A program made the position numbers and the translations under genes. A stretch of DNA of 47,191 nt from Lactobacillus acetotolerans DSM 20749 = JCM 3825 (GTDB taxonomy: Bacteria > Bacillota > Bacilli > Lactobacillales > Lactobacillaceae): the NCBI RefSeq assembly GCF_001436775.1, contig NZ_AYZC01000003.1, positions 14,509-61,699 of the forward strand, in the 5' to 3' direction. Each line of letters begins with the position of its first letter. Position 1 is the stretch's first letter. Of this stretch, positions 1 to 9,772 are shown piece by piece. The notes beneath the pieces are model-generated. The model searched no databases. It was not told the DNA's origin and was given only the letters and a program-made list of their open reading frames with translations.

Positions 1-3000
1 CACTCTCCATCAACTGAGGCTGTAGGCAAAACAATTACTGCATCCTCAAATGACAAGACAGCTGATACTGCCACAAAAAAGAATAAAGAAACAAATAGCA
101 CCAGTGTAAGTAACACGGGTGCTATTTCTGGTTCCAATGAAAAGCCAAATTTGAGCACATTTCCAGGTTTGACCTTATTCTTCCAAGCTAACAAGACTGA
201 TAATAATTCAGATATTGTTGAACAAAGTAGCTCAGTAAATAATAATCAAACAGCCGCAGAACAAAATAGTACTTCACAAAGTGAGCAGAACCAAGCTAAC
301 GAGCGAAATGCTCAAAGTACGGATAACACTGTAACTAATAGTTCCACTCAAAATAATAAGGAAACTAACTCAGTTGCAAATAATAAGCAAGCAAGTTCTA
401 CTGATAAAAAGCAGCTAACTAAGCCAGATTTGAGTACATTCCCAGGCCTATCCATGTTCTTCACTGACGTTAAAAATGTAGATGTAAAGGATAACGCCGC
501 CAAGACACCAGCTCAAGATACAAATGCCGATAAAAGTAATCAAGATCAAACAAATGCAGAAAGTAAAACGCCGTCTGCTAGTTTGGTTCCCGCAGAAAAG
601 ACGCCAACTGCACCTAAGAAAGATGCTGCATTAACTGCCGCTGCTTCAGATTTACAAAGTGCCATTGAAAAAGGTGATACTTACGTAAATTCAGATAAAT
701 TTAACCAGATGACAGCTGAAAAACAAAAGCAGTTACGGGATGCCATTCAAACTGGTAAAGAATTGATGGCTAAGTACAATACAATGCAAGCTGCCATGAA
801 TTCTGCTGCCTTGAAAGTAGACCAAAACAATAAAGCTAAAGCAAAAGCAAACGACAATACTCCAGCTTTAACTGCTTTAAGTGTTAATGACAACACACCT
901 GTAGATACTAATGTAAGTGTGGGTAATGCAACAACTGATACAAATTCTAAATCTGATAACGAACAAATTACTGCGCCTGAATTGAGTCAAGCTGCACAAA
1001 ATATTATAGTTTTGTTGCCAGCACTTAATCCAGAACCAAGTGGGGTTGCAAATATTGGGGCAAATGATTGGGATAGATTCTTATTTGTTCTTGCTGATGA
1101 CAAAACAGCTACGATTAATCTCACCGATAATCTAACAGCCCCTGATAATTCAGCTGGTACAATTCCAGTTAATTCTACTTATACTGCTGGTACGGATCCT
1201 AGTGGTACTCAAATGCATTTATCATTTATTAAAACTATTAATGGTAATGGGCATAATTTAAAACTTAATAATTATACTTTTACAGATGGCCACCCATCAT
1301 ATATGATGGGATGGGGACCTTCTTCAATAGGTTTTAGTGATATTAATATTGATGGTAGTAATACAGTTAAACCTACTTTTGACCGCTATTTTACTAATGT
1401 TACTTTAAATAATGCTCATACTACAGGAGCAATAAATTTTAGTGGCTTAGATAGTTCAGGCGCTTGTGGTGTAAGTCTAGTTGGTAATTCATCAATTGAC
1501 TTTGAAACACCACATACAACTGGTAGTAATGCACTTTTTGATTCACCAGTTAGTATAGGGAGTTATTCTGAATCTGGAATAGTGAATCCGCAAACAAACG
1601 TTAGTATTAAAGTGGGTCAGCAAATAGATCGATTATTTGCACCTGTTAAATCTACCGATTTCAACAAAGAACCACAAATAAATTTATTGGATAATGTTGG
1701 TGGTTGTGATGTCATAGATAATGCAAGTAATCGAGATCTTACTGCATTAAAAATTAGTATGAGTAGTGTTCCCTTAATATTTTCAATTATAAGTACTAAT
1801 CAGACTGTAGATACAAAATGGTTCATGTGGGGTGGGAAAACGAATTTTACAAGTAAAATACCTTTCGCTATGCAATATGTGCAAGCATATCCATCGAATA
1901 AGTATTTTATGTGGTTACTTAATCCTGTTACTAATATTAATTTAGCTGATACTTCAAATACTGATCCATCAAATGTAAACAATGTAAGCTTAATATCTGG
2001 TTCTGAACAAGAGACCCCTAAAGATGAGATTTTGAGTAAAGGTTATACAAATCGTACTTTTAATATATCTGTTGATCAATTGAACGATAAATCAGCTTTA
2101 GTGAATTATGATTATTCAAATAAATTCGATTATCTAATGTTTAGAAGAGCTGAAACTGATGCTGGTGGCTATGATGTAACTGCAGCAGATCAAAAAGTTC
2201 ATAAAGGTGATGTTAATCCGCCTGACCCAAATGATGCTAGTGATAAAGCAATTTTAACATTTAAAGATAACACCATTACAGATGGTGACCAGAAACAAAA
2301 TATTGCTACTTTAAAAGATACTGCTGATCTTTTTCGCCCTAATAATAAGACTATTCAAACGATCGATTGGGAACCCAATGCCATCATGGATGCTGATGGA
2401 GTCGTTAAAACTGATAGTGCTCTTAGTTTTATCAATTCAGATAAGAAATTGAATACTTCAGCCGGTCCTATTGGTGACAATATGAGTAATGCTGTGATTA
2501 AAATTACTTATGGTGACGGTACTACTGATGAGGTTCCAGTTAAGTTTTCTATTCAAACTAATGCTGACTTGTATAAGAATGCCAAGCCAACAATTACTAC
2601 TCACCAAGTAAAAGATGCTTTAACTAGTGATACTGAAGCGATTAATAAGAGTGACTTAACTAGTTTAATCGATACAGATGGTACCGATGTTAAAGACAAA
2701 GTAGATAGTGTTAAATGGGATACTTCCACTGGTTTACCGAATTTATCCAGTACTGCACCAACTAGTACGAAATTAATTGTGCATTTTACAGGTGATCCAG
2801 CAACTACTTTTTGTACTTATCCAGCTGACCAAGTAACGATTACGACCCAACCAGTTGTAGCGGCTCAAGATAAAATACATACCAGGGTTGGTGTGCTTCC
2901 TTCAACAGATGACGCTAAGAAAGCACTTGATAGTACTGATGTTGGTAAATTAACTAAGTGGAATCCCGCGTTCAAATGGGTTAACTACACTACTGGCAAA

Positions 3001-6000
3001 GATTTAACTGCAGATGATGTAAATGCTGCAACGTCAACTGCTGGTAAAGAGGTTGGCATTAGAATTGATTACTACACTGATTCTAAGCAAAGTGATGGTT
3101 ACCAAATTGTTCCAGTTAATTTAGTAGTTGATAATGATGCAACTTATTATTCTGATATTGATTCAGTTGATCTTACTGTACATGAAAATGATTTGTGGCC
3201 ACCAAGGGATACACCAGATACAGCTGAAGCTCTTAGTTCATTAAATGGTCAAGTGACGGCTGCACATTCAACTAGTCATGGTAAGATTGATACTTCGATT
3301 ATTGGTTATCAAAATGTAAAATATCAATGGCGGGGTACTTCATGGCCTGATCTTACCGGCACTACTGCAAATGTTCCAATTGTGCTTTATTTTGCAGATG
3401 GTTCTGTATCTGCTACTATACCGGCCGATAAAGTCCACATCACTGTTAAGAGTGCTAAAGCATCAGATAAAATACAAACAATTAGAACTAATTCTTTGCC
3501 AACACTTGATCAGGCAAAAGCTGCAGTAGATTTAACTGATGTGACTGCCTTTAATCCTGAAATTACGGGCAAATTTTCTTGGTATGTCAAAGATGCGACA
3601 ACTCATAAATATAACCCAATAACGAAAGCTGATACTTTATATGATAAGGCTGATGATAATGGTCAAATTACTGCCTATGTTCTGGTAAGTTATAAAGATA
3701 CGGCACCTATAGAGGATCAATCTAATGATGGTATTCAATATGTAAAGGTTAAATTAAACCTAACTCCTAATAGTGCCAGTTATGAGGCTGATCCGGTTGC
3801 TACTTCGATTGTGACACATGTAAATACCAAAGCTACTAACTTCCAGGATACTTTGAATAAGCATGTGCAAGTTGAAACTAAAGCAGATAGCAAGAAGGAA
3901 ACTGTCGACCAAATTTGGGATCCAACTACTGCCAAAGTAGTATTCCTTGATAATCAAGGTAAAGTTTCTGCTACTGCTGGCCCAGATTTAACTAAGACCA
4001 GTGATAAAACTACTTATCAAGCTAAAGTTGATTACGGTGATGGCTCTTACAGTAATGCCTTTGACATTGATATTACAGTTGAAGGTGCAAGTGAGAAGAC
4101 GCCAATTCAAAATGTAATCGTTGGTGAGCAGCCAACAGCTACTCAAGCCACAGATGCTGTTACCGTTGATACTACGAATATGCCATATTACAAAGCTGAG
4201 TGGTACACCGGTGACAGTGCTGGTGATACCTGGGATCCAACTAATAATCCGTTTAATACGGCAGATGTTAATGCTAATTTGCCTGCTTGGGTAAAGGTTA
4301 GTTATTACACTGGTTCAGATAAAACAGCAGCTGATGCCGATGGTTCTGAATATGTTCAAGTTCACTTAAACGTGGAATCACATGCGGATGCATATAAAGA
4401 TGCTAAACCAGTTATCACTACCCACAAAGTAACAGCTGATGCTGTAGCTAATACAAATGAAGCTATTAGTTTAGCTGATTTGGATAGCTTGAACTTGGGT
4501 GATGAAAAACTTAAAGATAAAGTTGATTCGATTAGTTGGGTTGATGGTTCTTTACCTAATTTGTCAACTGGCCCAGTTTCAGCCCAAGTTAAGATCCACT
4601 TTACCGGTGATCCCACTGATACTTATCGTGTTTATGACGTTAGCCAGGTTACAGTTAACTTAACAGATGTTAAAGCTAATACCACTAAAGTTCATACAGT
4701 AGTGCAAACAATGCCAAATTCTGATTCTAGTGCTGCTGCTACGGAAGCTAATGCTCCGGTTAAGGCACTTAACAGTGATGACGTAAAGAACATAGCTAAG
4801 TGGCACCCGAAGTTTAGCTGGGTTAAAGCCGATGGCACTACTTTAAGTACTGCTGACTTAAAGACACCAACTGATAAAGATGGTTTAAAGGTTGGCATTA
4901 AGATTGATTATTATACTGACGCTGCCCAACATGATGCCGATGGTTCAGAAATTGTACCAGTTTACTTAATCATTAATAGTAAAGGTACTCAATATAAGGA
5001 TGCCCAAGCAACAATTACCACGCACCAAGTAACAGGAGATGTGACTAGTGCTACTGAAGCTATTAATCTTAATGATTTGAAGTTAATGAACGGCACTGGT
5101 CCAGACGCCGATATTACTGGCGATGTGGACTCGGTTAAATGGGATAGTAGTAGCTATCCAACCTTGTCCGAAACACCAGCTGGGACTAAGATAATTGTGC
5201 ACTTTAAGAATGACCCTGAAGGAGTAGACCATACTTATCCGGCTAGCCAGGTAACCATTAAGACGCAAGCAGTTGAGGCTGATGACAGTAACATTCAGAA
5301 GACGGATCCAAGCACATTGCCAGATGCAACCCAAGCAAAGGCAGCTTTAAAGAGTGCTGATACAGATGCATTAGACAAATGGAATCCGGTTTATAGTTGG
5401 GCTAGTGATACTAATGGCACTGCCCTAAAGAAGACTGATATTGCTACACCAACTGGCAAAGATGGCCAGACTGAGTATGTAGTGATTAAGTACTACACTG
5501 ATCCGCAACATACTGATAGTAGTTTTGACGGCCAGCAAATAGTCAAAGTAAACTTGATCGTGAATAATTTTGCGGATGCGTATAAGAATGCTACAGCTAC
5601 CATTAATACGCACAAAGTGGCTGGTACAGTCAGTGCCAATGAAGCTATTAATCTTAAAGATTTGAAATTAACGAATGGAACTGGTCCAGACGCTGATATT
5701 ACTAACGATGTAGATTCTGTCGAATGGGCAGATACGCCAGACTTATCCGGTGCTAATGGTTTAACAGTTCATGCCAAGATCAAAGTGCACTTTAAGAACG
5801 ATCCAGACGCTGCTTACGCTACTTATGATACGGATCACGTGACAATTAACTTGGCTGATGTTAAAGCCGGAGCCAAAATTCATACTGCCCTGAAGACATT
5901 ACCGAATAATGACAGTTCAGCTACTGCCACTGCTGCTACAGCTGCAGTTCAAGCCTTGAACAGTACTGATGTAGGTAACTTAAAAGATTGGCACCCGCAG

Positions 6001-7362
6001 TTCAGCTGGGTCAAGACTAATGGTGGTACCTTAACTTCTGATGACTTAAGTACAGTAACACCAAGTGGTAGCGATGGTACCGCAGTTGGGATTAAGATCA
6101 GCTATTATACTGATTCTGACCACACTAAACCAGATGGTTATGAGATTGTGCCAGTTAAGTTAATTGTTGATAGCGATGCGGATACTTATAAGAATGCTAC
6201 AGCTGTTATTACTACCCACAAGGTAGACGGTACTTTAAATAATGCTAACCAAGCAATTAGCACTGGTGATTTGAACTTAACTGCCGCTGATGGTTCTGAT
6301 ATTAGTGGCGAGGTAGATTCCGTTAAATGGGCTGGCACATTACCAGACTTATCCGGTACTAATACTGCCAGTGCTGAAATTGAGGTCCATTTTAAGGATG
6401 ACCCAAGTGGCACTACCCAGACTTATACTGCTGAGCATGTCACGATTAAGTTAGTAGACGTAACTGCTGATGACAATAATAAGCAGAATGTAGACGTGAA
6501 GTCCTTGCCAACTTCTGACCAAGCCCAGGCAGCCTTGTTAAAGGATGATGTGGCCAACATTTCGAAGTGGAACCCAGTCTTTAGCTGGACTAAAGATAAG
6601 CAGGGTACGGCCTTAACAGCAGATGATGTCAAGACGGCAACCGGTGCTTCTGGTCAACCAGAGTATGTCTTGATTAAGTACTACACTGATCCCAGTCATA
6701 GTGAAGCTAGTTTTGATGGTGAAGAATACGTACCGGTTATGTTACGAGTTGGTTATAAAGCACCGAAGCCTAATAATGGTAACCATATTCCAGAACCAGA
6801 CCGAACACCGAAGTTACCAATCCCTGGTGAGGTCGATATTCCACAAGGCACAGACTTAAGTGGCGATACTACTTATGCTGGTGATGCGATTAAGAATAAG
6901 GACCAGCTGCCCGATGGTACCAAGTATAGTTGGCAGCCTGCACCGGATACTTCCAAAAAAGGTAAGCAAGAAGGTACAGTGGTTGTAACTTATCCGGATG
7001 GGACCAAGACTTCCATTAATGTCACGGTTAATATCGTGGACAAGAATGCCAATGGAACTAGTAATGGCAACAATGGTAATAATCACGGTGAAGCTAAGGA
7101 AGAATTGCTCAAGCACAATGCTTACCTGTATGGTCAAGATGGTAAACGTGCTAATAAAGCAGGCTTGAAGGCAGGTTCAACAGTTACTACTTATGGTATG
7201 GTTGTCATTAATGGCCGGAAGTTCTTTACTTTGGATAATGACTACTACTTAGCTGCTGGCAACGCTGTTGCTCAGACTAGAAAGCTCAAGTACATGCCTA
7301 TATCTATAACAAGTATGGTCAACGTGTTGGTAAGAAGGTCGTTAAGACTGGTCAGGATGTAG
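1..7362 (+). CDS. Giant secreted adhesin with pectate-lyase-like region, ~200-aa repeats, Rib-like domain and one in-frame SLAP repeat (5' partial, frameshifted)
   Basis: The frame is open from base 1, so the real start and signal peptide lie upstream. The protein begins with Thr/Asn/Gln-rich low complexity carrying two copies of an LSTFPGLxxFF motif (about 151 and 433). About 1050-1900 resembles the pectate-lyase-like adhesive domain of lactobacillar surface proteins (TINLTDNL, then a glycine/asparagine-rich beta-helix-like stretch around INGNGHNLKL). Seven ~200-residue repeats fill 2572-6756. A Rib-like domain follows at about 6826-7044 (LPDGTKYSW, TVVVTYPDGTK). A SLAP repeat begins near 7100 (LKHNAYLYGQDGKRANKAG). 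The last ~24 residues before the TAG at 7360-7362 are out of frame, because a base is missing near 7294; the true SLAP reading continues in another frame to 7883. Likely role: cell-surface adhesion, held on the wall non-covalently by SLAP. As sequenced, the product would keep only one SLAP repeat. Confidence 0.85.
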   Translation, partial: HSPSTEAVGKTITASSNDKTADTATKKNKETNSTSVSNTGAISGSNEKPNLSTFPGLTLFFQANKTDNNSDIVEQSSSVNNNQTAAEQNSTSQSEQNQANERNAQSTDNTVTNSSTQNNKETNSVANNKQASSTDKKQLTKPDLSTFPGLSMFFTDVKNVDVKDNAAKTPAQDTNADKSNQDQTNAESKTPSASLVPAEKTPTAPKKDAALTAAASDLQSAIEKGDTYVNSDKFNQMTAEKQKQLRDAIQTGKELMAKYNTMQAAMNSAALKVDQNNKAKAKANDNTPALTALSVNDNTPVDTNVSVGNATTDTNSKSDNEQITAPELSQAAQNIIVLLPALNPEPSGVANIGANDWDRFLFVLADDKTATINLTDNLTAPDNSAGTIPVNSTYTAGTDPSGTQMHLSFIKTINGNGHNLKLNNYTFTDGHPSYMMGWGPSSIGFSDINIDGSNTVKPTFDRYFTNVTLNNAHTTGAINFSGLDSSGACGVSLVGNSSIDFETPHTTGSNALFDSPVSIGSYSESGIVNPQTNVSIKVGQQIDRLFAPVKSTDFNKEPQINLLDNVGGCDVIDNASNRDLTALKISMSSVPLIFSIISTNQTVDTKWFMWGGKTNFTSKIPFAMQYVQAYPSNKYFMWLLNPVTNINLADTSNTDPSNVNNVSLISGSEQETPKDEILSKGYTNRTFNISVDQLNDKSALVNYDYSNKFDYLMFRRAETDAGGYDVTAADQKVHKGDVNPPDPNDASDKAILTFKDNTITDGDQKQNIATLKDTADLFRPNNKTIQTIDWEPNAIMDADGVVKTDSALSFINSDKKLNTSAGPIGDNMSNAVIKITYGDGTTDEVPVKFSIQTNADLYKNAKPTITTHQVKDALTSDTEAINKSDLTSLIDTDGTDVKDKVDSVKWDTSTGLPNLSSTAPTSTKLIVHFTGDPATTFCTYPADQVTITTQPVVAAQDKIHTRVGVLPSTDDAKKALDSTDVGKLTKWNPAFKWVNYTTGKDLTADDVNAATSTAGKEVGIRIDYYTDSKQSDGYQIVPVNLVVDNDATYYSDIDSVDLTVHENDLWPPRDTPDTAEALSSLNGQVTAAHSTSHGKIDTSIIGYQNVKYQWRGTSWPDLTGTTANVPIVLYFADGSVSATIPADKVHITVKSAKASDKIQTIRTNSLPTLDQAKAAVDLTDVTAFNPEITGKFSWYVKDATTHKYNPITKADTLYDKADDNGQITAYVLVSYKDTAPIEDQSNDGIQYVKVKLNLTPNSASYEADPVATSIVTHVNTKATNFQDTLNKHVQVETKADSKKETVDQIWDPTTAKVVFLDNQGKVSATAGPDLTKTSDKTTYQAKVDYGDGSYSNAFDIDITVEGASEKTPIQNVIVGEQPTATQATDAVTVDTTNMPYYKAEWYTGDSAGDTWDPTNNPFNTADVNANLPAWVKVSYYTGSDKTAADADGSEYVQVHLNVESHADAYKDAKPVITTHKVTADAVANTNEAISLADLDSLNLGDEKLKDKVDSISWVDGSLPNLSTGPVSAQVKIHFTGDPTDTYRVYDVSQVTVNLTDVKANTTKVHTVVQTMPNSDSSAAATEANAPVKALNSDDVKNIAKWHPKFSWVKADGTTLSTADLKTPTDKDGLKVGIKIDYYTDAAQHDADGSEIVPVYLIINSKGTQYKDAQATITTHQVTGDVTSATEAINLNDLKLMNGTGPDADITGDVDSVKWDSSSYPTLSETPAGTKIIVHFKNDPEGVDHTYPASQVTIKTQAVEADDSNIQKTDPSTLPDATQAKAALKSADTDALDKWNPVYSWASDTNGTALKKTDIATPTGKDGQTEYVVIKYYTDPQHTDSSFDGQQIVKVNLIVNNFADAYKNATATINTHKVAGTVSANEAINLKDLKLTNGTGPDADITNDVDSVEWADTPDLSGANGLTVHAKIKVHFKNDPDAAYATYDTDHVTINLADVKAGAKIHTALKTLPNNDSSATATAATAAVQALNSTDVGNLKDWHPQFSWVKTNGGTLTSDDLSTVTPSGSDGTAVGIKISYYTDSDHTKPDGYEIVPVKLIVDSDADTYKNATAVITTHKVDGTLNNANQAISTGDLNLTAADGSDISGEVDSVKWAGTLPDLSGTNTASAEIEVHFKDDPSGTTQTYTAEHVTIKLVDVTADDNNKQNVDVKSLPTSDQAQAALLKDDVANISKWNPVFSWTKDKQGTALTADDVKTATGASGQPEYVLIKYYTDPSHSEASFDGEEYVPVMLRVGYKAPKPNNGNHIPEPDRTPKLPIPGEVDIPQGTDLSGDTTYAGDAIKNKDQLPDGTKYSWQPAPDTSKKGKQEGTVVVTYPDGTKTSINVTVNIVDKNANGTSNGNNGNNHGEAKEELLKHNAYLYGQDGKRANKAGLKAGSTVTTYGMVVINGRKFFTLDNDYYLAAGNAVAQTRKLKYMPISITSMVNVLVRRSLRLVRM
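2572..6756 (+). repeat. Seven tandem ~600-bp coding repeats in the adhesin
   Basis: Repeat starts, judged by the Tyr of the YKNAxxxITTHxV motif, fall at 2572, 3148, 3781, 4393, 4993, 5581 and 6187, giving periods of 576-633 bp. Each unit has two halves. The first runs from YKNA to an HFxxDPxxTY...VTI strand pattern. The second runs from a LPxxxxAxxAL motif through KWxPxFSW to IKIDYYTDxxHxxxDGxEIVPVxLIV. The last four units are most alike, while units 2 and 3 are divergent. The second half resembles the Rib fold (DGxxxxVPVxLxV). Such arrays usually act as a stalk and recombine to change length. Confidence 0.85.
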
Positions 7363-7883
7363 CTATCTATGGGACAGTTGTTACGATTCGTGGTAAGAAG
7401 TATTACACCATTGATCACAATCACTTTATGAAGGCTAATAACTTTACCAAGGTTGCTTATCCAGACTTAGCTAATAGTGAGTTATCACCAAATGCTAAGC
7501 AAGATAGTAACAAAGCATTTACAGTTAAAGCCTTGAAGCACAATGCTTACTTGTATAACCAAGAAGGTAAACGTGCTAATAAAGTCATCTTGAACTTGAA
7601 TTCTAAGGTGAAGACTTATGGCACCAAGACCATCAATGGGCGCAAGTTCTATGTAGCAGATAATAACTATTACATAGCAGCTGGTAACATTGACGCAACT
7701 AAGCGTAAGCTTACTCATAATGCCTATGTTTACAGCCAGTATGGTAACAGACTCGGCCGGAAGGTGGTGAAGCAGTACCAAGTAGTTGGAACTTATGGCG
7801 ATCCCGTTGGAATTCACGGTAAGAGCTATTACATCATTGGTTCCGGTCGTTACCTCAAACGAGCAAATTTTGAAACCCGTTAA
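7293..7883 (+). pseudogene. Detached C-terminal SLAP repeats of the upstream adhesin
   Basis: This frame continues the SLAP domain smoothly from the point where the upstream frame loses it. It reads HAYIYNKYGQRVGKK, then two further units beginning LKHNAYLYNQEGKRANK and HNAYVYSQYGNRLGRK, and ends YLKRANFETR before the stop. These are three of what should be four repeats of about 60-70 residues, each with the NAYxYxxxGxR and GxxYYxI pattern of Lactobacillus S-layer-associated proteins. The first internal ATG (7428) has no ribosome-binding site and lies mid-domain, so independent translation is unlikely. Restoring one base around 7294 (TACAT to TACAAT) would fuse it to the upstream gene. Confidence 0.88.
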
Positions 7884-7928
7884 AGGTAGAACGTCCTAAC
7901 ATACGTACACAATTATTGGACGCAAAGA

Positions 7929-7970
7929 AGCGGTTGTTTGGTTGAAAAGATCAAACAATCGCTTTTGTTT
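7929..7970 (+). terminator. Rho-independent terminator of the adhesin gene
   Basis: AGCGGTTGTTTG (7929-7940) pairs with CAAACAATCGCT (7952-7963) with a single G-U pair. A T-rich tail follows. It lies 46 bp after the adhesin stop at 7883. Confidence 0.85.
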
Positions 7971-7995
7971 ATTCAAAATTTTATTTAACTAAAAA

Positions 7996-8035
7996 GTTAA
8001 AAATATTTGTACAAATTCTATAATCAAGGTATACT
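7996..8035 (+). promoter_or_regulatory. Probable promoter(s) for the cysteine leader and tcyP
   Basis: Two overlapping sigma-A-like options are visible. One has TTGTAC (8007-8012), a 17-bp spacer and TATACT (8030-8035). The other has a perfect TATAAT at 8019-8024 with a weak TTAAAA 16 bp upstream. The first would start transcription at about 8042, just ahead of the leader ORF's ribosome-binding site. The region follows the adhesin terminator, so tcyP should be transcribed independently. Confidence 0.6.
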
Positions 8036-8070
8036 AATCATAGTTACAAAAAGTAAGGAGATTTATTAAG

Positions 8071-8103
8071 ATGAAAATGTGTTGCTGTATTATGTCAAAA
8101 TAA
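8071..8103 (+). CDS. Poly-cysteine leader peptide (10 aa), candidate cysteine sensor
   Basis: A strong AAGGAG (8055-8060) lies 10 nt before ATG. The ORF reads MKMCCCIMSK and ends with tandem TAA stops at 8101-8106. Three consecutive Cys codons (TGT TGC TGT, 8080-8088) in ten codons is extreme for such a short ORF. It sits between a promoter and an intrinsic terminator, upstream of a cystine transporter gene, which is the layout of a ribosome-mediated attenuator. Ribosome stalling at the Cys codons during cysteine shortage would change which downstream hairpin forms. Translation and regulation are inferred; the ORF, its ribosome-binding site and its position are seen directly. Confidence 0.75.
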   Translation: MKMCCCIMSK

Positions 8104-8153
8104 TAAATGAGTAAATCAATTTGGATTTTCTCATTTATTAGCTAATTCGCTAA
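8101..8153 (+). promoter_or_regulatory. Mutually exclusive leader hairpins (attenuator switch)
   Basis: A perfect 11-bp stem pairs TAATAAATGAG (8101-8111) with CTCATTTATTA (8130-8140), extended inside by AAATC/GATTT (8113-8117 with 8124-8128). Its 5' arm begins exactly at the leader ORF stop codon, so a ribosome that finishes the peptide would cover it. A second small hairpin, TTAGC (8138-8142) with GCTAA (8149-8153), shares bases with the first stem and cannot coexist with it. Which state favours termination cannot be settled without folding. Confidence 0.6.
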
Positions 8154-8180
8154 ATATTTTGGGATAATTCATATTGATCA

Positions 8181-8253
8181 TCAGCAAACATTTAAATTCT
8201 TTAATAATCAGAAAATGCTGACATCTATATGAGATAGGTAGCAGCATTTTTTT
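8181..8253 (+). terminator. Attenuator terminator with candidate antiterminator arm
   Basis: AAAATGCTG (8212-8220) pairs perfectly with CAGCATTTT (8242-8250), with an inner ATCT/AGAT pairing, and is followed by T7 (8247-8253). Upstream, TCAGCA (8181-8186) is complementary to TGCTGA (8216-8221) inside the 5' arm of the terminator, so it could act as an antiterminator. The terminator lies 145 bp before tcyP with no ordinary gene between it and the promoter, so it should control readthrough into tcyP. Confidence 0.75.
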
Positions 8254-8277
8254 GTGTTTCTAATGAAGGTGAGAGCT

Positions 8278-8355
8278 ATGAAGAAAAGAATTAATAAAAC
8301 CTTAGTAACCCTATTCGGCAAATATAGAGGTGGGAGAGCTTGTCAATTTTCATAA
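8278..8355 (+). CDS. Possible 25-aa small ORF between attenuator and tcyP
   Basis: An ATG at 8278 follows GAAGGTGAG (8265-8273) at good spacing and opens 25 codons ending in TAA (8353-8355). The peptide starts MKKRINKTLVTLFGKY and ends RGGRACQFS, so it is basic and contains one Cys near its end. It lies after the attenuator terminator and 43 bp before tcyP. I do not recognise it. It could be a second leader whose translation affects access to the weak tcyP ribosome-binding site, or chance. Confidence 0.35.
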   Translation: MKKRINKTLVTLFGKYRGGRACQFS

Positions 8356-8398
8356 TTTCGATTCGAATATAAAGTTAATAGATGGGGATTTTTAAATT

Positions 8399-9772
8399 AT
8401 GAATGATAATATTTCGACTGTTATAGTCGTCGCTTTAGCCGCAATTATTTTGATTGCCATAGCGTATTTACAGAAGAAAAAGGTTAGTTTTAATAAATTA
8501 GTTGTTATCGGACTAATTACAGGGATTGTATTTGGAATCGGCGTCCAACTTATCTTTGGTGCCAAGAGTAAGGTGGCTACAAATGCCACTGATTGGATTT
8601 CTATTGTTGGTAATGGATATATTTCCTTACTGCAAATGTTGGTAATACCACTGATTTTAATTTCATTAATTAGTGCCTTTACTAAGCTCAAGACATCAGA
8701 AAAATTTGGTAAAATTACCGGTAATATTTTGTTTTTCTTACTTTCAACTACTGCCGTAGCAGCACTAATCGGATTTATTAGTGTAGCTGTCTTTCACTTA
8801 CAAGGAGCGGCTTTTGCTAGAGGTACAGCTAGCAAAGATAATTTAGCCTTCTTGCAACAACACCAGAACACTTTGAATAAATTATCGGTACCACAAAAAA
8901 TTGTCAGTTTGTTACCACAAAACATCTTTGCCGATTTAGCAGGGACACGTGCAACTAGCACGATTGCCGTAGTTATCTTTTCAATGTTAGTTGGCTTTGC
9001 CTTCATGTGGTTAAAAGATAATAAGCCAGATGCTGCTAAAGTATTTGCTAGTGGCACTAACGCTTTAGACCAAATTTTAGGACGAATAGTAAAGATTATT
9101 ATCAACTTAACCCCTTACGGTATCTTCTCATTAATGACCCAAACCGTAGCTGTTAACAGCATTAAAACAATCGAAGGCTTAGCAATCTTTATCGTTGCCG
9201 TTTACTTCGCTTTAATCTTAGTGTTAATTGGGCATACAATAATTTTGCTTGTTAACCGGATCAATCCGATTACATATTATAAAAAGGTTTGGCCAACATT
9301 ATTATTTGCCTTCACATCAAGAAATAGTGCTGGTGCACTGCCAATGAACGTTGAAACCCAAACTAAAAAATTAGGTGTTGATCAAGCAATCGCTGACTTT
9401 TCAGCCAGTCTTGGATTAAGTATTGGTCAAAACGGTTGTGCTGGTATTTATCCAGCAATGATCGCTACAATCACAGCGCCAATTGTTGGGATTAATATCT
9501 TTTCTTTCAAATTTATTCTTACATTAATTCTCGTAGTTACCATTTCTTCCTTCGGTGTAGCTGGATCAGGTGGTGGAGCTACCTTCGCCAGTTTGATCGT
9601 ATTAGGTACTCTTAATCTGCCAATCGGAGTTATGGCTATCGTATTAGCAATCGACCCAATCGTCGATATGGGTAGGACTGCAATTAACGTTAATGACAGC
9701 ATTTTAGCAGGATTGATCACCTCTAAAAGAATGAATCTGCTGGATAAGAAGACTCTTGTTAAAAAGCAATAA
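8399..9772 (+). CDS. tcyP: L-cystine/sodium symporter, TcyP type
   Basis: A 457-residue polytopic membrane protein of the dicarboxylate/amino acid:cation symporter family, close in length and N-terminal pattern to Bacillus TcyP (LQKKKVSF, LITGIVFGIGVQLIFG, ISLLQMLVIPLILISLISAFTKL). The C-terminal half has the transport-core features GQNGCAGIYPAMIA and a glycine-rich GVAGSGGGATFASL, with DPIVDMGRTAINVNDS near the end. Expected role: uptake of cystine across the cytoplasmic membrane. It is monocistronic, between the cysteine leader upstream and a strong terminator 14 bp downstream. The ribosome-binding site is weak (GGGG at 8384-8387). The Cys-codon leader independently supports a cysteine-related substrate. 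Confidence 0.88.
   Translation: MNDNISTVIVVALAAIILIAIAYLQKKKVSFNKLVVIGLITGIVFGIGVQLIFGAKSKVATNATDWISIVGNGYISLLQMLVIPLILISLISAFTKLKTSEKFGKITGNILFFLLSTTAVAALIGFISVAVFHLQGAAFARGTASKDNLAFLQQHQNTLNKLSVPQKIVSLLPQNIFADLAGTRATSTIAVVIFSMLVGFAFMWLKDNKPDAAKVFASGTNALDQILGRIVKIIINLTPYGIFSLMTQTVAVNSIKTIEGLAIFIVAVYFALILVLIGHTIILLVNRINPITYYKKVWPTLLFAFTSRNSAGALPMNVETQTKKLGVDQAIADFSASLGLSIGQNGCAGIYPAMIATITAPIVGINIFSFKFILTLILVVTISSFGVAGSGGGATFASLIVLGTLNLPIGVMAIVLAIDPIVDMGRTAINVNDSILAGLITSKRMNLLDKKTLVKKQ

Follow-up and report, generated by a model that had tools for sequence, protein, structure and literature searches.

Sensing of tRNA charging in Firmicutes is generally attributed for the most part to T-boxes, and many gut and food lactobacilli need external cysteine. 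The DNA analysed here (47,191 nucleotides, referred to below as the window) carries a gene for a cystine importer, tcyP, that is preceded by a ten-codon ORF with three adjacent cysteine codons, and the question is how such a leader might control the importer. With a probability of roughly 0.8, the leader was assigned as a transcription attenuator of tcyP that is ribosome-mediated and specific for cysteine. This assignment follows the amino-acid attenuation proposed in an earlier note on the same DNA and is supported by conservation of the leader; the response to cysteine was inferred from sequence. The elements read directly were a Cys-run ORF with its ribosome-binding site, four segments that can pair as 1:2, 2:3 and 3:4, and an intrinsic terminator.

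The tcyP gene and the elements of its leader

The gene tcyP (8399–9772, + strand) encodes an importer of the SDF family; its product matches PF00375 with E 3.1e-93. No NCBIfam model scored above its cut-off for TcyP. Plasmid relatives of the protein are annotated as L-cystine transporter or tcyP, and identity to the copy in an E. coli plasmid record is 44%. Upstream of the leader lie a frame for a repetitive protein of 2403 residues (151–7362) and one for a small protein with an SlpA domain (7428–7883, PF03217).

A candidate promoter (TTAAAA-16-TATAAT, 7997–8024, + strand, 10/12 matches) lies ahead of the leader ORF. A simple scan gave five promoter-like sites and a mean of 5.2 in shuffles; the frequency is thus not above chance, and the site is only a plausible promoter. 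The leader ORF (8071–8103 including the stop codon, + strand, direct reading) has the codons ATG AAA ATG TGT TGC TGT ATT ATG TCA AAA TAA and encodes MKMCCCIMSK (MKMCCCLISV in the sister leaders L105 and L106); it is preceded by the Shine–Dalgarno sequence AAGGAG (8055–8060, + strand, direct reading). Among the 130 ORFs of 5–60 codons with a Shine–Dalgarno sequence in the whole window (75 on the + strand, 55 on the − strand), it is the sole one with adjacent cysteines. Met codons stand beside the Cys run in the leaders of the window, L009, L010, L019 and L122 (for example MKMCCCIMSK and MMCCCMMQATMC), which would reflect either a response to methionine as well as cysteine or simply the needs of pairing.

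The stop-codon hairpin H1 (8101–8140, + strand; direct reading and fold) was confirmed as a perfect 11 bp stem with the arms TAATAAATGAG (8101–8111) and CTCATTTATTA (8130–8140) and the loop 8112–8129. Its first base pair falls on the stop codon, as is also the case in L105 and L106, and its fold energy (8098–8143) is −14.5 kcal/mol. Inside its loop lies the 5′ arm (8115–8127) of a candidate long-range helix, the 3′ arm of which (8166–8178) belongs to a conserved block at 8166–8193; both arms are on the + strand.

The four strands, all on the + strand, were placed as follows: strand 1, the Cys-codon stretch, is a putative anti-antiterminator that would pair with strand 2 unless a ribosome covers it (8075–8087, from pairing energy and fold model); strand 2 is the putative 5′ arm of the antiterminator (8181–8193) and strand 3 its 3′ arm as well as the left arm of the terminator (8212–8221), both from complementarity and fold model; strand 4 is the right arm of the terminator with the T7 run (8241–8253, direct reading). 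The intrinsic terminator with T7 that had been noticed earlier was found at 8212–8253, with the stem AAAATGCTG (8212–8220) / CAGCATTTT (8242–8250), a T run at 8247–8253 and a fold energy (8210–8253) of −16.5 kcal/mol. A simple terminator scan with loops limited to 3–8 returned three sites, this terminator not being among them. A predicted translatable ORF with cysteine regulatory codons and an intrinsic terminator between it and tcyP, two of the marks of a ribosome-mediated attenuator of the trp/his type, are both present.

The T-box covariance model (RF00230) gave no match at the window leader, in line with the absence of a T-box from the first reading. No Rfam family attained its gathering score there; five weak matches (up to E 5) were obtained for 7890–8420, with T-box not among them.

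A second small ORF, MKKRINKTLVTLFGKYRGGRACQFS, lies between the terminator and tcyP (8278–8355, + strand; 42/78 columns identical in three leaders). It has no Shine–Dalgarno sequence by the rule of the ORF survey and is absent from the listing of that survey. A Cys-containing small ORF likewise occupies the same interval in L105 (MVNKRLVKLLGKHRGGQTC), L106, L107 (MCTYSSK), L009 (MAGQCWHKFGT), L014 and L010. Small ORFs beginning MAGVMWPQ are located 3′ of the T-box in L003 and L018.

Predicted switching and the level of control

If Cys-tRNA is plentiful, the ribosome would complete the ten codons and depart, and strand 1 would take strand 2 before strand 3 exists; with strand 2 sequestered, strand 3 would join strand 4, and transcription would halt before tcyP. 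If Cys-tRNA is short, the ribosome would sit on strand 1 and strand 2 would take strand 3 before strand 4 exists; with strands 2 and 3 paired, the terminator would fail and the importer would be made. In most of the longer leaders found in other genomes the antiterminator arm would be part of the ORF itself, 3′ of the Cys run, and a ribosome passing the Cys codons would cover it.

Pairing in the window was compared with shuffled sequences. Strand 1 (8075–8087) pairs with 8182–8193, with one bulged base, at −12.0 kcal/mol, and 10 of 300 shuffles were as strong; the corresponding counts in the sister leaders, where the best register differs, were 68/300 (L105) and 65/300 (L106). The modelled probability of 1:2 pairing in the window fell from 0.87 without a ribosome to 0.00 with a ribosome on codons 3–11. 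When the transcript before the terminator was folded for the three leaders of the window type (type A: the window, L105 and L106), a ribosome on codons 3–10 took 1:2 pairing from 0.76–0.87 to 0.00 and 2:3 pairing from 0.00 to 0.32–0.59. The 2:3 helix of the window is weak, at −4.9 kcal/mol alone, and no better than chance (64/300 shuffles as strong; L105 40/300, L106 86/300). Because in the window model a ribosome anywhere on codons 3–11 frees strand 2, specificity would have to come from dwell time at the Cys codons. Candidate switching strands were thus found; the stop hairpin is not the antiterminator, and the predicted competing strand is the Cys-codon stretch.

Positions 8184, 8218 and 8244, partners in the 2:3 and 3:4 helices, are G, C and G in the window as opposed to A, T and A in L105 and L106; judged from these sequences, the change G8184A, C8218T, G8244A is concerted but a single event. 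Covariation among seven gasseri-type rows was slight (2/32 pairs changed on both sides, a value equalled by 30/500 shuffles).

The long-range helix 8115–8127 / 8166–8178 was as strong in 9, 12 and 0 of 500 shuffles for the three type-A leaders, its stretches having been picked after the match was noticed. It competes with H1: in the window model, placing the A site on the third Cys codon (codon 6) rather than the second (codon 5) lowered H1 from 0.51 to 0.20 and raised the long-range helix from 0.32 to 0.67. In L105 and L106 the long-range helix dominates throughout with the ribosome on codon 3 or later, so the swap with H1 was seen in the window alone.

Modelling was extended to 14 of the 26 Cys-run leaders, picked as representatives, and in all 14 a T-run hairpin could be placed by eye between the leader ORF and the gene. 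The complementarity to the left arm of the terminator was matched by few of 300 shuffles in L122 (1), L009 (3), L107 (4), L014 (12) and L010 (20), was no better than chance in L079 (64), L086 (57), L087 (72), L089 (64) and L113 (103), and was worse than chance in L019 (291). In the Agrilactobacillus leaders L009 and L014, strand 3 was paired upstream at 0.92–0.93 while the ribosome occupied CCC; the value was 0.12 and 0.02 without a ribosome or with it a few codons later. In L010 it was 0.83, 0.83 and 0.20 for the three Cys codons in turn, against 0.00 in the absence of a ribosome. Among the pre-terminator models, those of the three type-A leaders, L009 and L014 accordingly gave a mutually exclusive antiterminator governed by the position of the ribosome; it was unsupported in L019. 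When the RNA upstream of the ribosome was left free to fold, the antiterminator reached 0.09–0.27 on the Cys codons in L079, L086 and L113 and did not rise above its ribosome-free level in L107. When only the RNA downstream of the ribosome was folded, 9 of the 14 leaders were high at the Cys run and at most 0.30 later, although L086 (0.80) and L010 (0.90) rose once more when the ribosome reached the stop codon; L107 and the three type-A leaders showed high values throughout, and L019 was low.

Inclusion of strand 4 at equilibrium made the terminator dominant wherever the ribosome sat, at 0.95 in the window and with means of 0.79–0.98 in the 13 other leaders with the ribosome on the Cys codons, and the switch would therefore have to be kinetic, decided before strand 4 is transcribed. 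L122 behaved in the contrary manner: without a ribosome its strand 3 was paired upstream at 0.90 and its terminator stood at 0.09. Folding with a placed ribosome, which had been suggested as a check, thus predicted switching before the terminator in some of the leaders, the window among them, and none at equilibrium, where the window terminator stayed in place. The models as a whole are mixed, with predicted switching before completion of the terminator, none at equilibrium, and some leaders in disagreement.

The indifference of the terminator to the ribosome at equilibrium in most leaders is what would be expected if control acted instead on translation, the leader ORF altering access to a ribosome-binding site as in mycobacteria (its own, that of the second small ORF or that of tcyP) and the terminator being incidental. 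In M. smegmatis the Cys leaders reportedly act at the level of translation (PMC13236596). The second small ORF ahead of tcyP in the window, L105, L106, L107, L009, L014 and L010 would suit this explanation, as would the minimum-energy folds of L079, L086, L088, L113 and L122, in which 3′ sequence of the ORF is paired to the leader's own ribosome-binding site and, on these models, may keep the leader closed in the absence of a ribosome. Control of translation was nevertheless given a low probability, as a T-run hairpin can be placed in each modelled leader and as the T run of the gasseri type lies only about 35 bases ahead of the tcyP start, so that a second ORF would hardly fit.

Distribution and conservation of cysteine leaders

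Homologues of tcyP were searched for in 75 genomes of the genus of the window (24 with a match, 12 strong), in 397 genomes of the family (35 with a match at 1e-60), in 50 genomes of the genus g6 (7 with a match) and in named genomes (77 loci from many phyla). The set of 42 deduplicated Lactobacillaceae regions was obtained from 49 upstream regions by dropping 11 rows and adding four (L192, L193, L196 and L197). Ten rows were dropped as second copies of a genome, by contig and position (L082, L084, L118, L120, L121, L112, L129, L004, L108 and L011), and L005 was dropped because it offers 51 bases only; L194, L195, L198 and L199 repeat L113, L114 and L019 and were not added. For comparison, 60 regions from 59 genomes of other families, spread across genera, were drawn from 153 genomes with a match. 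Six loci near the query were kept outside both counts, namely L008, L012, L013, L015 and L020 (Streptococcus) and L016 (Paenibacillus); a CCC ORF was found at none of them.

A Cys-run ORF with a Shine–Dalgarno sequence was detected in 26 of the 42 Lactobacillaceae regions; five others carry a T-box motif and 11 neither, one of these (L002) with just 257 bases upstream. Shuffled regions gave a mean of 0.95/42 (maximum 4, 40 rounds), and antisense Cys-run ORFs numbered 0/42. In the other families the counts were 2/60 for the Cys-run ORF, 0/60 for the T-box motif and one antisense Cys ORF. In the sampled set, the Cys leader thus appears as a feature of the Lactobacillaceae. In L001 and L011, the 2500 bases preceding tcyP gave neither a Cys leader nor a T-box motif.

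The 26 leaders comprise that of the window, two from g5 (MKMCCCLISV, two genomes), one from g27 (MTKLNFKIQLACCCTCYML, one genome), 11 from the rest of the genus of the window (for example MIMFNVRQTNSCCCNCQKIWQLFGVQSLVHFKNFSS in L. taiwanensis, L007), three from Agrilactobacillus or kin (MFCLKAQQMMCCCQQAMPMSCLVQRTILSAETVCKHQP in L009), seven from g6 (MTNAIFTKSAACCACCANANMLFVLPYDYSSRDQQS in L113; Limosilactobacillus equigenerosi is included) and one from g28 (MNSKRMCCKPLTNDGMQSPGCFGCQCMLNNWLSL in L122). All 12 strong-match genomes of the genus carry a Cys-run leader. Conservation of the Cys run in relatives, which had been named in advance as the point on which the proposal could fail, was therefore observed. 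Across Lactobacillus tcyP genes the Cys run is shared and the window type is not: the other Lactobacillus species have a Cys leader of another, longer kind, and their tcyP belongs to a separate lineage. Only two relatives of the window type were found, from 12 g5 genomes; the ten g27 genomes held no tcyP besides that of G256, and 397 relatives of G222 added no Lactobacillaceae tcyP to the earlier family-wide matches. Within the genus the window leader had a DNA match (G072, L103); the frame at that place has no Cys run, and the match was taken as chance. A second match there corresponds to the window's own hairpin read on the other strand.

The gasseri-type leader gave 11 strong matches in the genus, all at tcyP, and no copies away from tcyP in the 75 genomes (at most 11 candidates scored per genome). 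The other 25 matches were of at most 47 bases, and 21 fell within the first 49 query bases, the promoter part, which thus looks like a common promoter form. Promoters resembling TTGACWAAAAGTAAG occur in leaders of the genus of the window and of g6.

A single inserted A in L088 relative to L080 alters the peptide past CCCNCQK while the RNA stays alike, and the frame differs near the end of the ORF in L083, L085 and L086; on this sequence evidence, the peptide is free to vary, in frame too, once past the Cys run. In the three type-A leaders, codons 1–6 (16/18 columns identical) and 8166–8193 (24/28) were the most alike of 15 named stretches; in 8254–8277, 4/24 columns are identical.

The same comparisons bear on whether the Cys-rich peptide is itself the product, as a small metal- or redox-binding protein. 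Its CCC, CCCNC, CCACC and CQCMCC motifs could presumably bind metal, but lengths of 10–38 residues, the tolerance of frame changes past the Cys run and the location of every strong gasseri-type match at tcyP make this very improbable. Least probable of all is a chance ORF without function and a tcyP gene under an unseen protein regulator, which would suit the other Lactobacillales families (no Cys leader in 58/60, no T-box motif in 60/60) but not the excess of 26/42 over 0.95 expected, nor the fact that the likeness among type-A leaders peaks at codons 1–6 and 8166–8193.

Origin of the leader and comparison with known systems

In the TcyP tree (midpoint root; 34 of 39 rows, with L239, L240, L241, L249 and L019 left out for lack of a long frame by motif search), the window protein groups with those of g5 and g27 (95/92), then with those of g39 and g2 (100/100). 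Nine other proteins from the genus of the window group with six of g6 (100/99), apart from that of the window. As two leader types thus occur within one genus on different tcyP lineages, leader and gene were likely acquired together by horizontal transfer.

The T-box covariance model also matched L116, L119, L129 (same genome as L018) and L111, with only L116 above the gathering score. A T-box lies upstream of tcyP in L008 (Streptococcus ratti), so T-boxes on this gene are not confined to the Lactobacillaceae. In the genome of the window, 15 T-box matches were found elsewhere (3 above the gathering score), most of which we take to precede aminoacyl-tRNA synthetase frames; leader peptide and T-boxes therefore coexist. 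The architectures of the leaders are dissimilar, yet they fit one idea, attenuation via charged tRNA-Cys. Tentatively, and with less than even odds, the Lactobacillaceae might have evolved cysteine attenuators of tcyP several times, each with its own folds and a shared Cys-run logic, swapping them with T-boxes, and the window type may read the position of the ribosome through H1 yielding to the long-range helix. The occurrence of a Cys leader peptide and of a T-box on the same importer in one family lets one ask why and how such sensors replace each other, and in gut and food lactobacilli the leader is predicted to act as a switch under cysteine starvation.

In the open-access literature searched, most subscription papers lying outside it, no Cys leader was described for tcyP or for the Lactobacillaceae. 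Cys leaders have been predicted in Actinobacteria, with no conserved terminator hairpins in Mycobacterium (PMC1262725), and polycysteine short ORFs that are leaderless and lie before cys operons are known from mycobacteria (Canestrari 2020, by the title cited in PMC13236596). These resemble the present leader in having a short Cys-run ORF before cysteine genes, with ribosome stalling as the sensor, a prediction in the case of the present one; the present one differs in being led by a Shine–Dalgarno sequence, in preceding a transporter gene, in its intrinsic terminator and in its phylum. A leaderless ORF without a terminator hairpin, the mycobacterial type, is not what was found here, given AAGGAG at 8055 and the terminator at 8212–8253. 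The uORFC-8-2 motif, found exclusively before cysS of Rhodobacterales, shares the tandem Cys codons in a uORF, a terminator-compatible U run and predicted ribosome-mediated attenuation; it differs in gene (cysS rather than tcyP) and phylum (PMC8632094). Among Firmicutes, classical leader peptides likewise occur where other species use a T-box: a His leader in bacilli (PMC2965389) and, for the ilv-leu operon of S. aureus, a Leu-rich attenuator (PMC5794164). Both concern other amino acids and other genes. The nearest case within the family is the cysteine-specific T-box on a transporter operon of Lactobacillus paracasei (PMC6004538), which likewise places a transporter operon under RNA control by cysteine supply; there, however, the RNA reads the tRNA directly, without a ribosome or leader ORF, and the transporter is a different one.
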